The notes under the pieces were generated by a model that ran no database searches, was not told the origin of the DNA, and was given only the letters and a program-made list of their open reading frames with translations. 44,610 bases of DNA from positions 1 through 44,610 of IMG/VR virus record IMGVR_UViG_3300036851_000139; one strand, written 5' to 3'. This DNA comes from a virus. Positions 16,925-44,610 of this stretch are shown piece by piece (position 1 is the first letter of the stretch; the number at the start of each line of letters is the position of its first letter). Made by a program: the position numbers and the translations under genes.

Positions 16925-17268
16925 CCGTAAACCTCCCCGCCTTTATCACCCCCGAGCAGCTTGCGGCAGAGGTCGGCTGGTCGGAAAGACGCCTGCGTGA
17001 GAAGGCGCGGGAGCTTGGCGCGTGCCGGATTTTAGGCAATCGTATGATACTCACCCAGGCCGATGTTGAACTGCTTCTGGAGGCTGCCAAACCATGCCCC
17101 TCAAAATCTACCGACGCGGCGACGTTTGGCATTATCGGGGGACCGTTGCCCGCCGGCGACTACGCGGCTCTACGGGCGCTACGAACAAAGAAATTGCGGC
17201 CAGGTATGCCGCAGAGATCGAAAACAAGTTCTGGAAGCGTGGTTTCGATGGACCGGAAGCGGTCCTGA
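16921..17268 (+). CDS. Excisionase-like HTH protein overlapping the integrase
   Basis: A 115-aa open frame whose first 57 residues form a MerR/Xis-type helix-turn-helix (FITPEQLAAEVGWSERRLREKA, then RILGNRMILTQADVELLLEA), as in excisionases or recombination directionality factors. From residue 58 on, the frame overlaps the start of int for 175 nt in another frame. That tail is Arg/Lys/Ser-rich and may be only tolerated sequence. Position before int supports control of excision. Confidence 0.7.
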   Translation: MTVNLPAFITPEQLAAEVGWSERRLREKARELGACRILGNRMILTQADVELLLEAAKPCPSKSTDAATFGIIGGPLPAGDYAALRALRTKKLRPGMPQRSKTSSGSVVSMDRKRS

Positions 17269-18098
17269 CGTTCGCCCAGGCGTCGATCAAGTATCGAGCC
17301 GCCGGCAAGCAAACACGGTTTCTGGAGCGCATAGAGGACTACTGGAAAGACACGCTGGTGAAGGACATCAACGCGGGCGCCATCACCCAGTCAGCGCGGG
17401 AGCTTTACCCGCGGGCTGCTAATGCGACCCGCAACCGGCATGTGATCATCCCGACGCAGGCCGTCATCAATCACGCAGCGGAGCTGGGCTTATGTGGCAA
17501 GATCAGCGTCAAGAGGTTCGACGTATTTACGAAACTCAAGAAGCCCGCAACCATCGCCTGGGTGCGATCCTTTATGGAGTCGACCCCACCGCATCTCGGG
17601 GGGTTGGCTATCTTCATGCTTCTTACTGGAGCGAGAGTTTCGGAAGCGCTCTCGGTGGATTGGGCGGACGTGGATCTGGAGAAGCGGACGGCGCTGATCC
17701 GTCAGTCCAAAATTGGGGCCGAGAGGCTCGCGCACTTGCCGCAAGAGCTGGTGGTAGCGTTGGCGAACATTCCGAAGGAGACCGGCCGCAAGGTGTTCCG
17801 CTATACCACGAAGGCGGCAGCCGATAAGTCCTGGCGAGCGGCCATCAAGCGCGCCGGGATCGAGCCGCTATCCTTCCACTGCTGCCGGCATGGCTTCGCC
17901 ACGGCCTTGCTGCACGAAGGCGTTGACGTGGTGACTATCGCAAGGCTCGGCGGCTGGAAGTCGGCTGAGCATGTCCTGAAAACCTACGGACACGCCAAGG
18001 ACGACATCACTTTGACGGATCGAATTTCTGGCTCAAATCTGACACACGAAGAAATCGACAACTCAGAAATGCCCTACAAAACAAGGGGTTCGCGATGA
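17094..18098 (+). CDS. int: Tyrosine recombinase integrase
   Basis: A 334-aa site-specific recombinase that integrates and excises the phage at att sites. The catalytic set is visible: Arg181 (LTGARVSEAL), Lys206, His262 and Arg265 (FHCCRHGFAT), Trp288 in the place of the second His (GGWKS) and the nucleophile Tyr298 (KTYGHA). The N-terminal residues 1-55 form the arm-binding domain and 56-150 the core-binding domain. GGAGG lies ten bases before the ATG. The attP core was not identified. Confidence 0.95.
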   Translation: MPLKIYRRGDVWHYRGTVARRRLRGSTGATNKEIAARYAAEIENKFWKRGFDGPEAVLTFAQASIKYRAAGKQTRFLERIEDYWKDTLVKDINAGAITQSARELYPRAANATRNRHVIIPTQAVINHAAELGLCGKISVKRFDVFTKLKKPATIAWVRSFMESTPPHLGGLAIFMLLTGARVSEALSVDWADVDLEKRTALIRQSKIGAERLAHLPQELVVALANIPKETGRKVFRYTTKAAADKSWRAAIKRAGIEPLSFHCCRHGFATALLHEGVDVVTIARLGGWKSAEHVLKTYGHAKDDITLTDRISGSNLTHEEIDNSEMPYKTRGSR

Positions 18099-37696: not shown

Positions 37697-38507
37697 TTAC
37701 GAGTTGAACAGCACGCCCTGAAGGCGGCGGTTGCTGATTGTCATGTTGCCCGCAAAGCCCATGAGCTTGACGCTGGCGTCTTGGTTGACGCTCATGCGCT
37801 TCGGCCCGATGGCGTTGAAATTCCGGTCGCGGTGCGGCCGATATTTCACGTAACGGGTGTTGAGGAAGTACATGGTGTTCGTCGGGCAGCCGCCGACCGG
37901 GATCGGGTCGGTCGAATAACCCTGGAAGCCACCATCCAGCAGCACGTCGGCTGAGCGGTACTTCAGGGATTCGAAACCAGTCTCGCCGACGCGAACCGCT
38001 TCCGTGCGCTGGATCGCCTGCAACGACTGGTTATAGAGTTCCCAGAAGTTGTTGTCGGCCGTGATGAGGTCCACCTTGTCCGTGCCACGAACCAGCTGGT
38101 TCGCAACAGTGTCCATGTAGCCTTTCATGTTGGCCGCAGACGCGGCGGCGCCGCCGTCGGCGATCGCAGCGAACTTGATGTTGCGCCAGAACTCCCAGGT
38201 CGCCGGATCGATGCCGCCGACTGCGCCAACGCTCGGCGTTTTCGAGACGAGCTGCTGAAGGCCGCCGATGCTCTTGGGCGTGGTGCCGTCAGAGTAGACG
38301 CCAGTGGCGATCAGGCTTTCCAACGAACGTTCAGCGTTCGCGACGCGACCGCCGATCAGCTCGATCATCCGCTCTTCGCCGGAGTTCTGGAGTTCTTCCA
38401 GGCCGGAGATGGAGACCGCGACTGCAGCCTGTCGGATTTGGAACACCGCAGCGGAGAAGATTTGCTGCGGAGCGATATTCAACGTTTCGTAGCCCGAATA
38501 CCACATA
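37697..38507 (-). CDS. Major capsid protein, exon 2
   Basis: This encodes the C-terminal 269-270 residues of the capsid shell protein (HK97-fold type). It begins in the middle of the E-loop/spine region with MWYSGYETLNIAPQ, then QAAVAVSISGLEELQNSGEE and a P-domain. No ribosome-binding site or proper N-terminus precedes it, and a stop lies just upstream. Joined with exon 1 after intron removal it gives a 342-aa protein, the usual length for this group. Confidence 0.9.
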
Positions 38508-39393
38508 CGGTCTGTTACTTAAGTGACCTGCTGTTAAGCAGGCGGAGCAACCTCTTCGGATCGCTCTCCCCGGTTTCGTTGGGCAGTTATTGCCGGGGTC
38601 CAGACTGTCGCATCCTCTCGAAAGAGGTCTTCCCGCTCAGTCGTTCACGCTGCACACCTTGCGGCTGCTTGCGCCCTGTCACCCACTTCTGGGCTTCCAA
38701 GTCAATCAGGGAAGATTTATCCACGATTATGTTGATTCTATTCGACTTTCACGCCGCTTGTGGTAGAATTATCGGCGTAATCTAACTTGAGATTTTTATG
38801 GCGAAACGCGGAGATACCGTCACTTGCCCAGTTTGCAGCAAGCAGTTTTATCGCTTTCCGTCTGAGACCAAGAAGCGTCAGACATGCTCCCGAACTTGTG
38901 CCGCTCGCATGTTCCGAGACAAAGGAACAACCGAACAGTGCGTCGTTTGCGGTAAGGCCTTTTGGCGGTCTCCCAATCTCGCTAAGCGAGGGATGGGAAA
39001 ATATTGCTCAAAAGCCTGCAACGGCGAAGGCAGCAAGAAGCAAGTCAATCGTTCTTGTCTTCAGTGCGGCGTTGACTTTTCAGTCCCGCTACACAGAACG
39101 CTTACAAAGAACGGTGCCAACTTCTGCGGCCACAAGTGCCGGCTCACCTTCCGCCGCAAGCTTCGCAAGCGCAATGAACAAGAGATGTTCACCAACTGGC
39201 AGAAGCGAGAGTGGAAAGACGAGAAGTGCATCAGATGTGATGCAGTCGATAAACTCGAACTCGACCACATCACCCCGCGGTTTGCGGGAGGGAAAGCAGA
39301 AAAGAACAACGCCCAAACTCTCTGCCGGCCTTGCAACCGAAAGAAATTTTGGACGGACGATTACCCGCTATATATCGCCTTTCTCAAGCAGCG
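38508..39393 (-). ncRNA. Group I self-splicing intron in the capsid gene
   Basis: About 886 nt on the leftward strand. The catalytic core lies near the 3' end: GACTG (38642-38638) pairs with CAGTC (38607-38603) as P7 around a P8 hairpin CCTCT-TTCG-AGAGG. A P9 hairpin follows (CCCCGG/CCGGGG, 38598-38568), and the intron ends in G at 38508. At the 5' end the exon sequence TGCT pairs with GGTA to give a U-G pair at the splice point, extended by CGCT/AGCG, as in P1. ATATA next to it can pair with the 3' exon TATGT as P10. Exact borders are inferred from these pairings and from the reading frame. Confidence 0.8.
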
Positions 39394-39412
39394 AGCAGAA
39401 TCGGTTGGTTAG
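38798..39412 (+). CDS. HNH homing endonuclease, antisense inside the intron
   Basis: A 204-aa protein with an N-terminal array of three zinc-finger-like motifs: CPVCSKQF...CSRTC, CVVCGKAF...CSKAC and CLQCGVDF...CGHKC. The C-terminal HNH domain has CIRCDAVDKLELDHITPRFAGG and QTLCRPCNRKK. It should cut an intronless capsid gene near the insertion site. The gene runs opposite to the intron RNA, so it must be expressed from its own promoter. Its last 19 nt run into capsid exon 1 on the other strand. Confidence 0.9.
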   Translation: MAKRGDTVTCPVCSKQFYRFPSETKKRQTCSRTCAARMFRDKGTTEQCVVCGKAFWRSPNLAKRGMGKYCSKACNGEGSKKQVNRSCLQCGVDFSVPLHRTLTKNGANFCGHKCRLTFRRKLRKRNEQEMFTNWQKREWKDEKCIRCDAVDKLELDHITPRFAGGKAEKNNAQTLCRPCNRKKFWTDDYPLYIAFLKQRAESVG

Positions 39413-39611
39413 TCGTGCCATTCAAAGCGTACTCCAGCTCTTCCCAGATCGTGGTGCCGCCGTCGATTGGCGAATAGGATCGGGTGTTGCCGCGCTTCTG
39501 TAGATAGCTGAGCAACATATTATTTCTGGTTACGTTGTCAGCGGCCTTCTTGCTACGATTCTCGATCGTCGTAGCCACGATGTCGTCAATTGACGGATTG
39601 GGGGTGGCCAT
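39394..39611 (-). CDS. Major capsid protein, exon 1
   Basis: This encodes residues 1 to 72 plus two bases of a shared codon: MATPNPSIDDIVATTIENRS, DNVTRNNMLLSYLQKRG and GGTTIWEELEYAL, the N-arm typical of this capsid group. AAGGAG precedes the ATG at 39611. Without splicing the frame would stop after seven more residues beyond Gln-Pro (ILLAA then TGA). With splicing at 39394/38507 the frame continues without shift. Confidence 0.9.
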
Positions 39612-41047: not shown

Positions 41048-41406
41048 GAGGTTGCTACATGAGGAACAAACTTAGAAAAGTTCTCCTTCACAGGAGGAAG
41101 CTCCCGGCGCTTCAGCGGCTTGATCGACACCAGCAACTGATATTTGAGTGCATTGATTGCGGCGTGCATCTTGCCCGCAATCGCAGCGTCATCGTCGGTC
41201 GGTGCGACCACAAACGACGCTTCCCCCTGGCAAGCCTGCGCCCCCATCGTAACGGGATGCGCAACGACGACGCCGATCATGGTCCCCGTCGAATCCCAAA
41301 CCGGGGCCGGGCATTTGATCTGCGTGAACTTGCTGTGAGCCTGCGCGATCGGCTGGATTGTCTTGCGGATGCGCATGACGGATGCGCCCAGTTCGGTTGA
41401 GTTCAT
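41044..41406 (-). CDS. Hypothetical protein after portal
   Basis: A 120-aa protein with a beta-type middle (KCPAPVWDSTGTMIGVVVAHP, CQGEASFVVAPTDDDAAIAGK) and a basic helical end. The ATG overlaps the portal stop (ATGA). No family is recognised. Confidence 0.65.
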   Translation of the reverse strand: MNSTELGASVMRIRKTIQPIAQAHSKFTQIKCPAPVWDSTGTMIGVVVAHPVTMGAQACQGEASFVVAPTDDDAAIAGKMHAAINALKYQLLVSIKPLKRRELPPVKENFSKFVPHVATS

Positions 41407-43826
41407 GCTTTCACCTTCGGGTTCGGTTGCATCGCCTCTTTCGCCTTGGCCTCTCGGACCTTCTCGCCAAGCTCGAACTCGTGTTCGCCGGCCTCGGCAT
41501 CACGCTCCGCAGCGCGCTCGGCCATCTCATCATCGCGGACGGCAGCGCGTTCGTTGATCTCTGCGTCGCGCTCGGCGGCCTCAGTCTCGATCGCCATCTT
41601 CTGCTGATCGACCTGCAGCTCCATCCCCATTCTCTGGCGCTCCATCTCCATGCGCTCGCGTTCGAGCTGGAGCTTTTGCTGGTCAATCTGAAGCTGGGCT
41701 TGCGCCTTCATCAGTTCGATTTGCGCCTTCTGCTGCGACAGCGCCAAATCCTGCTCGCCCTTCTGCTTGTCGAGCGCAGCCTTTTGCTGCATGCTCTGTG
41801 CATTCAGCTCAGCTTTTTGCTTTTCGCCCTGTGCCTTGACCTCTTCAGGGCTCGGCGGCTTGGGTGCCGGGTTCTTCGCAGCCTGCGATAGCTGCTCGAT
41901 CGCCTGCTCCCACACGCCCTCGACATCGCGCCCTGCACCAAAGCGCCTGAAGGCAAACAGGACCGACTGACCCAATGCTGGCATGAGTTGCGGAACGGCC
42001 TGGGCGATCGGAATGGACTTCTCCAGGAAGCCGCCGACCGCGGTAAACATCTCGACGACGGACTCCTTGGCCGCCTGCTTGTCGACCTCCACCGTGCTGT
42101 CGGTCTCGATGTCGATGCGGAACGTCCGCATCTTGTCGTTCTTCAGAAGCGCGCACGCTTCCATGAACCTCTTTTGCGCCAACGCATTAAAATCGGGCGG
42201 AGGTGGCTGCAGGCCGGGAGCGGGAGGCATGCCCCCGGCCGCGCCATCCACGGGCGGAGGTGACACGCCCGGTTCAGCTTCAAGCGGAGGCCCGCCGTTG
42301 TGGCCCATTTGCGGCTGTTGGGGCGGGGCTGGTGGCGCCTCGGCCTTCAGTTCGTCCGCGATGAGCGGCAGCATGCCCGTCATCTCGGCGAGGATTTCAG
42401 GGGAGAACTGCTCGGAGATGATCTCCGCCGCTATGCGGATGGCGTCGCCAGCAAAGCGCGCGACTTCCTTCTTGCGATCCTCCAGACGAAGCGAGGCGAA
42501 CTGACCCTTGATGCGCTGCTCGGTTGCGGTCTTTGCCGTTCCCTGCGCCTGGCCACGAATGATGTCCGACAGGCCCGTAATCTCGGCCATGTCGGCCTTC
42601 ACACGGTCGCGCGCCTCGTAGAGGCGGATCAGCGCCTCCACCACGTCCTTGATCGGGACGAAGTCGACCGACGCCTCAAGGCCTCCCTTTTGCGCAAACT
42701 CGGAATACTTCGCGACGCCGATCATCCGGTTGTCGGCGCCCTCTGAAAGAATGCGCTTCAGTTCCGGGATCGAGGCATCATAAACGCCATTGACGCGCAC
42801 GGCGTCGGTTAGCGCCTTGATGCGCGCTGTCAGATCATCGAGCTCGTCAGCCTGGTCCTGATACTCGACGTAATCCGGGACCGGCACGAGGCAGTCATTG
42901 GTCGTCGTCGCATACAGCGGCTTTGGGCAGGGCCAGAATGATTCCAGTTGCAGCGGGTCATCCGTGACCTCAAGCGGGGCGTTCTGCCAGTCCGGAGCGA
43001 TGAAGATGACCTTCTTCTCGGACTTGTCCCAGATTTCCACCACGCAGGCGCGGGGCTGGCGCCTCTTCTTCTCCTTGTCGCTCTCCTTGTCCTTCGACCC
43101 GTCACGAAGAGGAACGAGATCGGCGATCGGCCTGCCGGTCTCCTTGTCGATCCCCTTGAAGCGCGCCCGCATCTCCTTGCGGGTCAGCATCTCCTCTTTC
43201 GCGACCCACCACACTTCTTCCCAAACAGGCGATGGCGAGTGCTTAAACTTGTCCCAGGCAACGTAGTCGGTGCAGACTTTCTCGTATGTGACCGGCCGCG
43301 GGGCCAAGCCTGCGTCCTGCGTCGCGTTAGTGGATTCGTTAGCCTGCGGCTGCGAACCTAGATCCTCGGGCGCGCCATACGTCGGCTCATAGCGCTCCCA
43401 AAGCGTGCCGCGCCCGCACAGAAGATAATCGAGCACCGACTTCTGCATCGACGGGTGCAGATATCCGACCTCGATTTGCACCTCCAGCGCCCGCTCCAGC
43501 GTCATGCTGGAGATGCGGGCCAGCGGGTCTTTGTCGAGGTAGCGCCGCTCAGCAACAGGCTGCGGGGCTTTCAGATAGATCGCGGGCTGCAGCGTCTGGA
43601 TGTTCGACCAGAGCGCATTGAACCGGGCGCCAGACGGTTGCGGCGTGCCGTTAGAATCGGCCTGGCGCTCGTCCCTGTATCGGCGAATGATCTTCCGACA
43701 GCGATCGAGCCATGGCTTGAACTCGTCGTCATAGGCCGCAATCTGGTCAGTCCAGTATTTGACGAGCGCAGCGTCTTGCGTCCCCGGTTTTTCGTCCTGG
43801 GCCGAGATGTTGGGGTCATCGGCCAT
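41403..43826 (-). CDS. Portal protein with long coiled-coil C-terminus
   Basis: An 807-aa protein. The first 520 residues follow the podovirus portal layout: a basic helical front (WTDQIAAYDDEFKPWLDRCRK), SMQKSVLDYLLCGRGTLWERY, and the stem region (AEITGLSDIIRGQAQGTAKTATEQRIKGQFASLRL). From about 520-590 it is Pro/Gly-rich, then a Gln/Glu/Ala-rich coiled coil of about 150 residues closes the protein, probably the internal barrel. The ATG (43826) shares a base with the stop of the beta-rich gene (TGATG). Confidence 0.9.
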   Translation of the reverse strand: MADDPNISAQDEKPGTQDAALVKYWTDQIAAYDDEFKPWLDRCRKIIRRYRDERQADSNGTPQPSGARFNALWSNIQTLQPAIYLKAPQPVAERRYLDKDPLARISSMTLERALEVQIEVGYLHPSMQKSVLDYLLCGRGTLWERYEPTYGAPEDLGSQPQANESTNATQDAGLAPRPVTYEKVCTDYVAWDKFKHSPSPVWEEVWWVAKEEMLTRKEMRARFKGIDKETGRPIADLVPLRDGSKDKESDKEKKRRQPRACVVEIWDKSEKKVIFIAPDWQNAPLEVTDDPLQLESFWPCPKPLYATTTNDCLVPVPDYVEYQDQADELDDLTARIKALTDAVRVNGVYDASIPELKRILSEGADNRMIGVAKYSEFAQKGGLEASVDFVPIKDVVEALIRLYEARDRVKADMAEITGLSDIIRGQAQGTAKTATEQRIKGQFASLRLEDRKKEVARFAGDAIRIAAEIISEQFSPEILAEMTGMLPLIADELKAEAPPAPPQQPQMGHNGGPPLEAEPGVSPPPVDGAAGGMPPAPGLQPPPPDFNALAQKRFMEACALLKNDKMRTFRIDIETDSTVEVDKQAAKESVVEMFTAVGGFLEKSIPIAQAVPQLMPALGQSVLFAFRRFGAGRDVEGVWEQAIEQLSQAAKNPAPKPPSPEEVKAQGEKQKAELNAQSMQQKAALDKQKGEQDLALSQQKAQIELMKAQAQLQIDQQKLQLERERMEMERQRMGMELQVDQQKMAIETEAAERDAEINERAAVRDDEMAERAAERDAEAGEHEFELGEKVREAKAKEAMQPNPKVKA

Positions 43827-44610
43827 CAGCTGAAGTTCCAACCGGTATTGCCGCCGCCATCAATAGAGTTGCCCGCGTTGAACGTCGCGCCACCCAACGC
43901 GGTGCTATTGATGATCGTGCAGAAACTACAGGTATTGGTGCCGGCGGCATCCGAGAACGTGAATGGCGACGCCGTCGAGCTTTGCACGGTCAGGCGCGAA
44001 CTCGTCGACGACCCTGCCAGCGACAAGCTGCCGACAGTAACGGTCAGCCCGGTCTGAAACGTGTAGCTACGCGCGAGCGTTGATGGATCAACCGTGAAAG
44101 CTCCCGTGAACGTCGCGCCCCCATTCATCTGCACTTCGGCGCTGTTGAACAGGCCGTCATGGTACCAATCCAGCCAGCCGCCGAACGACAGGCCCGCCAA
44201 ATTGACAATGCGCACCGAACTCGACCCGCTGAATGTCTCCAGGCGCGCCGTGTTGGCAGTGACCGTGATCCCGGTGTTCGTAAAGCTGAATATCGCCTGG
44301 CCCGTGCCGGAATTCGACGAGGACAGCAGGCGGCTAGCCCCCAGCGTCAGCACGCGCGTTGCAGTGCCGGCTGAAGCAAAATGCGTGGCCTGCATGTTGA
44401 AGTTGTTCGTCACGAGCGTCCCGGCGTTGAGCGTGAACACGCCCTCCGTCAGGAAGTGTGAGCCCAGCGACACAGTGCCTCCAGGCGACTGGATCGTGAC
44501 CGAGCCGAGGAAGCCGCCGGTCAGAACTGTCTGCCCGCCTACGGCAGAGATAGCCGGAAGATGAAGATTCAGGTTCATCGTCCCGGTCTGCACGGCAATC
44601 GTTCCGATGA
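43826..44610 (-). CDS. Beta-rich virion protein, C-terminal part (runs in from right edge)
   Basis: The frame is open from the window end to a stop at 43826 (261 codons visible), so its start lies outside. It is the in-frame continuation of the gene beginning at 1695, joined through the 127-base match. It shows the same Thr/Gly/Ser-rich strand pattern (GTVSLGSHFLTEGVF, TVTANTARLETFSG, WLDWYHDGLFNSAEVQMNGG) and ends in FNAGNSIDGGGNTGWNFS, a form often seen at the end of beta-helix surface proteins. Confidence 0.8.
   Translation of the reverse strand, partial: IGTIAVQTGTMNLNLHLPAISAVGGQTVLTGGFLGSVTIQSPGGTVSLGSHFLTEGVFTLNAGTLVTNNFNMQATHFASAGTATRVLTLGASRLLSSSNSGTGQAIFSFTNTGITVTANTARLETFSGSSSVRIVNLAGLSFGGWLDWYHDGLFNSAEVQMNGGATFTGAFTVDPSTLARSYTFQTGLTVTVGSLSLAGSSTSSRLTVQSSTASPFTFSDAAGTNTCSFCTIINSTALGGATFNAGNSIDGGGNTGWNFS
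44484..44610. repeat. Copy 2 of exact 127-base repeat (window end)
   Basis: Identical to 449-575 over all 127 bases up to the last base of the window. The natural junction is 44483 followed by 449. Confidence 0.9.

Follow-up and report, generated by a model that had tools for sequence, protein, structure and literature searches.

A group I intron with an opposite-strand HNH endonuclease gene in a phage major capsid gene, and a candidate C·A pair at its 5' splice site

An antisense endonuclease in a capsid intron is already known from LittleE, a mycobacteriophage of Cluster J, where an endonuclease ORF lies on the strand opposite to an intron of the major capsid gene, and where splicing was demonstrated by RT-PCR and protein sequencing (PMC3706429). 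Antisense endonuclease genes are also known in myxomycete introns, among them the nuclear group I introns Dsq.L2066 and Dir.S956-2 of Didymium, in which the endonuclease gene runs opposite to the ribozyme strand (PMC9548176). Regarding the 5' splice site, the group I database of 2025 calls the U-G pair "completely conserved" and requires the U, and 16,427 candidates were rejected by it for lacking this base (PMC11835236). Departures have been reported in fungal mitochondrial group I introns, with C-G at the 5' splice site (PMC3562157), and in group B IStrons, which splice after G, one base away from a U-G that is retained (PMC4227781). In view of these exceptions, the U·G pair is not taken here as a defining trait of group I introns.

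The locus described here lies in a virus record of IMG/VR, IMGVR_UViG_3300036851_000139, whose whole stretch of 44,610 nucleotides was analysed and is called the window below. As in LittleE, the gene that is interrupted is the major capsid gene and the endonuclease ORF is on the other strand, but LittleE has an exon 1 ending in U, a LAGLIDADG-like endonuclease with an HNH-like tail and an unrelated host (PMC3706429). The Didymium introns share the opposite-strand gene but belong to eukaryotic rDNA and encode His-Cys box enzymes, and the insertion in Dsq.L2066 is in P9 and not in the P1 loop (PMC9548176). The C-G introns (PMC3562157) and the IStrons (PMC4227781) differ from the usual U·G pairing exactly at the 5' splice site, as the window intron appears to do, but neither of them shows the C·A wobble that we propose for it. 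Late genes of a tailed phage lie on the minus strand of the window, and the presence of an integrase gene suggests that this phage is probably temperate. The evidence given below supports the reading that its capsid gene is split by a group I intron bearing an opposite-strand gene for an HNH endonuclease. The features are collected in Table 1.

Table 1. Coordinates of the features in the window, with the evidence for each
Feature	Position	Strand	Evidence or remark
Integrase gene	17094-18098	+	
Tail and lysis genes	around 30-36 kb	-	
Portal gene	41403-43841	-	
Exon 1, major capsid gene	39412..39611	-	phrog_9953; L002 DNA identity ending at 39412; gapless spliced product
Exon 2, T ATG TGG ... 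stop	37697..38507	-	phrog_9953; alignment with L001-L003
Group I intron, 904 nt	38508..39411	-	missing from L001-L010; core covariance model match
Catalytic core P3-P8 as modelled	38603..38720	-	113.2 bits, E 2.6e-24, model R1
Internal guide sequence 5'-ACAUA A UCGUG-3'	38722..38732	-	10/11 complement of ligated exons
P3 5' strand UCUUCCC	38709..38715	-	partner 38634-38628 GGGAAGA; covariation
P7 5' strand GACUG	38638..38642	-	partner 38607-38603 CAGUC; pseudoknot with P3
P8 hairpin CCUCU-UUCG-AGAGG	38614..38627	-	UUCG-type
P9, P9.1, P9.2 hairpins	38598-38568, 38566-38545, 38542-38527	-	MFE fold of 38602-38508, z -2.5
Terminal G (omega-G)	38508	-	sole G among splice-equivalent ends
HNH homing-endonuclease-like ORF, 204 aa	38798..39412	+	antisense to capsid; Pfam PF01844 E 3.9e-9; phrog_1271 E 2.1e-21
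Promoter-like site, TG before -10 hexamer	38742..38769	+	9/12 consensus positions

The two capsid pieces are in-frame parts of one major head protein, as an earlier note made from the letters of the window had proposed. This is confirmed by phrog_9953 (major head protein), which matches the N-terminal piece over profile positions 4-64 (E 1.2e-10) and the C-terminal piece over positions 67-327 (E 1.6e-78). Calling the protein HK97-type is plausible: the profile match to the PDB entry 6j3q_A is weak (E 0.0037), the Pfam SU10_MCP match is below the cut-off, and an AlphaFold model of an intronless relative reached a mean pLDDT of only 33.5.

Close capsid relatives without an interruption were found in three IMG/VR contigs (L001, 86%; L002, 94%; L003, 93%), and their protein reads ..ALNGTT-MWYSGYE.. 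or ..NGTT-QWYSGYE.. at the junction. Exon 1 aligns to L002 with 92% DNA identity and the alignment stops exactly at 39412, while on the right-hand side the DNA alignment with L001 and L003 starts again at 38506. Joining C39412 to T38507 gives a protein of 336 aa that is gapless against the three relatives (93.8, 93.5 and 85.7% identity), and the predicted sequence of the ligated exons is GGCACGACTATGTGG. Exon 1 thus holds codons 1-66 and two bases (AC) of codon 67, a Thr codon whose last base is the first base of exon 2, and the junction sits immediately before YSGYE, an invariant motif of the phrog_9953-type capsid family. The alignment of the spliced product to intronless homologs, which the earlier note had suggested, supports one protein made of both pieces, whereas the junction given there inserts six residues.

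The insert has a group I core that can be recognised with a model built from its relatives. A covariance model (R1) was built from 48 related phage introns, with the window excluded; it matches the insert, where every pair modelled is kept, and has no match in nine intronless capsid loci. Among the 48 members, again with the window excluded, 98% of the cells in P3-P8, including the P3/P7 pseudoknot, are paired, and the covariation of these helices is 0.379, against 0.138 in shuffled and at most 0.091 in slid controls. All the pairs of P3 change on both sides in the family (7/7), and the last (fifth) pair of P7 may be A-U, G-C or U-A. The P7 strands, the UUCG hairpin of P8, the P9 hairpins and the terminal G had already been picked out in the earlier note and are present at the positions in Table 1, and its overall reading, a group I intron with an antisense HNH gene, holds up with the R1 match despite the negative Rfam result.

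Actually, the Rfam search had been proposed as the check, with the absence of a hit named as a refutation of the intron, and RF00028 gave no group I match on the window at the gathering threshold or at E<=10. However, RF00028 also misses both close relatives of the intron, MW202674 and CRP-118, and since these plainly split known genes, the negative result is uninformative. The model is itself stated to be incomplete (PMC11878797), and a match to it serves for detection and does not define a group I intron. These two relatives were found by blastn with the insert: in podovirus ctn9Y15 (MW202674) the same core splits a P22-type coat gene (80.6% core DNA identity), and in Roseobacter phage CRP-118 it splits a ribonucleotide reductase gene (76.7%). 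Both have the core motifs of the window, but they differ from it in that no endonuclease is annotated in the gap and that P1, by inspection, has 8 bp and includes a U·G; neither record annotates an intron. When the IMG/VR viral contigs were scanned for the core pattern, 93 stretches matched, which represent around 60 distinct introns, and the same core lies inside ribonucleotide reductase, tail and coat genes. The element of the window is a new member of this large and poorly annotated phage intron family. A search for a second copy of the intron itself found none, and it is known from one contig only.

The guide sequence lies just ahead of P3, around 680 nt downstream of the 5' splice site. 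Its UCGUG (38726-38722) pairs with CACGA of exon 1, forming a P1 of 5 bp, and its ACAUA (38732-38728) pairs with UAUGU of exon 2, forming a P10 of 5 bp. The guide is complementary to CACGAC^UAUGU everywhere except at the junction, where C39412 faces A38727 instead of the U·G pair usual at a 5' splice site. This site is unique in the window at one mismatch or fewer to the full exon complement, and dinucleotide shuffling of the 83 nt that separate the endonuclease start from P3 gave a match like this in 15 of 20000 shuffles. Furthermore, the best partner of the guide among 999 windows of 12 nt along the spliced capsid mRNA is the junction. The P1 and P10 that had been drawn at the 5' end of the intron in the earlier note are probably chance pairings. 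The P1 of the window is short: it has five Watson-Crick pairs, whereas most relatives have about 6-8.

The position of the guide was then compared within the family. Where relatives lack P2, their guide begins 23 nt ahead of the anchor TGACTTGG with the guanine of the U·G pair; A38727, 23 nt before the core anchor, occupies that same position. A U·G helix exactly there was found in 43 of the 59 other members by an automatic census, in which the splice sites are mostly set by P1 pairing rather than by cDNA. This census at a fixed guide position replaced an automated attempt to locate both splice sites jointly in all members, with open-frame tests, which was too noisy. Seen by eye, most of the rest show the U·G in a different register or behind a P2 hairpin, the exceptions being L079 and L114. 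An A at the guide position occurs in other members from 18 viral contigs, and those inspected have U·G elsewhere, except for L114; the genome contigs gave no matches of this kind. L079, with a hairpin at 25 nt, was considered as a second C·A case and rejected, because its translation suggests a junction elsewhere and the hairpin is probably P2.

A protonated C·A pair is shaped like a U·G wobble. In a study of 1989 cited in PMC6155759, Doudna, Cormack and Szostak reportedly found that C·A can replace U·G in Tetrahymena ribozymes engineered at the 5' splice site, and we liken the window to this wobble-pair cleavage, although those variants are laboratory mutants and not a natural intron. The C in question stands second in a conserved Thr codon (ACN; the relatives L001-L003 have ACC), which would make it hard to change to U. 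Since the shape of C·A is like that of the wobble, a change from G to A in the guide is what would be expected at a site offering C under selection for wobble geometry. We consider it likely, on the grounds of the terminal G and the guide position, that this is a natural group I intron with C·A in the place of U·G, in which the exon C is fixed by the Thr codon, the guide has changed from G to A and the wobble geometry is kept. A literature search, in which the classic literature was covered only partly, found no natural C·A splice site, and this candidate pair would be the new part of the locus.

As the intron starts with TAA and exon 2 with TAT, cuts after C39412, T39411 or A39410 yield an identical message, and therefore homology alone cannot place the cut (the C|T, T|A and A|T junctions give the same spliced mRNA). 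Of these cuts, only the one after C39412 gives an intron ending in G. It is unlikely that the same intron is cut one base later, with exon 1 ending in U39411, paired as U-A with A38728, and the intron ending in U38507. Such a cut would keep the usual terminal U of exon 1 and gives the same ligated mRNA, but it needs two departures and not one, namely a Watson-Crick U-A in the place of the wobble and the loss of the terminal G. Furthermore, it would put the guide base 24 nt from the core anchor rather than 23, and G38508 already sits at the expected place after a GTAACA motif, as near the 3' end of the relatives. The ending in G, as expected of a group I intron, would fit the homolog-consistent junction.

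An insert that is not spliced at all, leaving the capsid as two polypeptides or the locus as a dead variant that has received an endonuclease insertion, is in our view very unlikely. The negative RF00028 result would agree with it, and departures such as C·A could be a sign of decay. However, the core is intact with all the modelled pairs kept, the guide fits both exons, the exons of an essential gene join without loss, and relatives carry the same core within ribonucleotide reductase, tail and coat genes.

The boundary of the earlier note, with exon 1 ending in U39394, a nearby P1 and a product of 342 aa, is hardly credible: the frame does remain open past 39412 (NQPILLAA*) and the pairing at the 5' end reaches -15.9 kcal/mol with loops and bulges included, but the six extra residues (NQPILL) are missing from intronless relatives at 94% identity and the open stretch has a counterpart in no homolog, 39410-39394 encodes the C-terminus of the endonuclease on the opposite strand, the pairing lies away from the conserved guide position, and both the L002 identity and the frame of the homologs end exon 1 at 39412.

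The explanation that we regard as very probably right is a self-splicing capsid intron with the C39412/T38507 junction, a C·A pair and homing by the antisense HNH enzyme. The intron would be transcribed along with the late structural genes and would excise itself from the RNA. The guide would align the end of exon 1 (CACGAC) beside the start of exon 2 (UAUGU), with C39412 facing A38727 as a wobble that replaces the usual U·G. Guanosine, as the cofactor, would attack after C39412, the last base of the intron, G38508, would then enter P7, and the joining of the exons would restore an unaltered 336-aa capsid protein. The product of the antisense gene probably cuts intronless alleles, which do exist (L001-L003), at the conserved site coding for YSGYE, and this cutting would let the intron spread.

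Regarding the endonuclease, the antisense HNH ORF of the earlier note was recovered, with three Cys-rich, zinc-finger-like repeats followed by a C-terminal HNH domain (residues 144-183). Its stop had been placed within exon 1, and an overlap does exist; it is one base long and not 19, with the TAG at 39410-39412. The ORF lies within the P1 loop, with the 5' splice site on one side and the guide on the other, and P1 would therefore close over around 680 nt. As the gene is antisense, its expression would have to proceed from the plus strand and be separate from that of the late capsid message. The promoter-like site, which precedes the endonuclease start by 28 bp, may be its own promoter; two such sites occur in the region against 0.7 expected, which is a weak excess. 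Relatives of the endonuclease were searched for, with none in the viral contigs and only partial HNH matches of 35-36% in phage records.

If the C·A assignment is true, the ribozyme would recognise wobble geometry in nature as it does in the test tube, and the window would offer a natural counterpart of a known ribozyme-engineering result. C·A introns could then settle at sites without a U, and the splicing of the capsid message might be pH-sensitive. It would also follow that searches based on boundaries can discard real introns; the 2025 database, which requires the U, would exclude a C·A intron (PMC11835236). As for the family, around 60 distinct members are known, many of them in capsid, tail or reductase genes, and RF00028 misses those tested, so that structural genes split by them go unrecognised in phage records.

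Some other members deserve a mention. The family sequences tested with RF00028 were three, L012, L013 and the window, and all three were missed. Two tandem family introns, with a micro-exon of about 22 nt in between, lie in an N4-gp56-type (phrog_1357) major head gene in L078:2970-3777 (+) and in L100:4600-4927 (-), and the first intron of L078 has an antisense LAGLIDADG-like ORF in the P6 region (by eye). L031 and L040, both with portal genes nearby, L068 and L104 have two neighbouring family introns per contig, apparently in one gene. Capsid genes of the phrog_9953 type carry family introns at a different site in L025:461-567 (-), L028, L030, L041, L043, L048, L076 and L082; that site is at a VNQDA motif near the C-terminus and its P1 has U·G. 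Sense LAGLIDADG-like ORFs occupy the P1 loop in L093 and L114, and in L093 a U·G P1, AGACCCU paired with GGGGUCU, encloses about 1 kb. Finally, L079:1248-1369 (-) is a GC-rich member of the family in a tape-measure gene.
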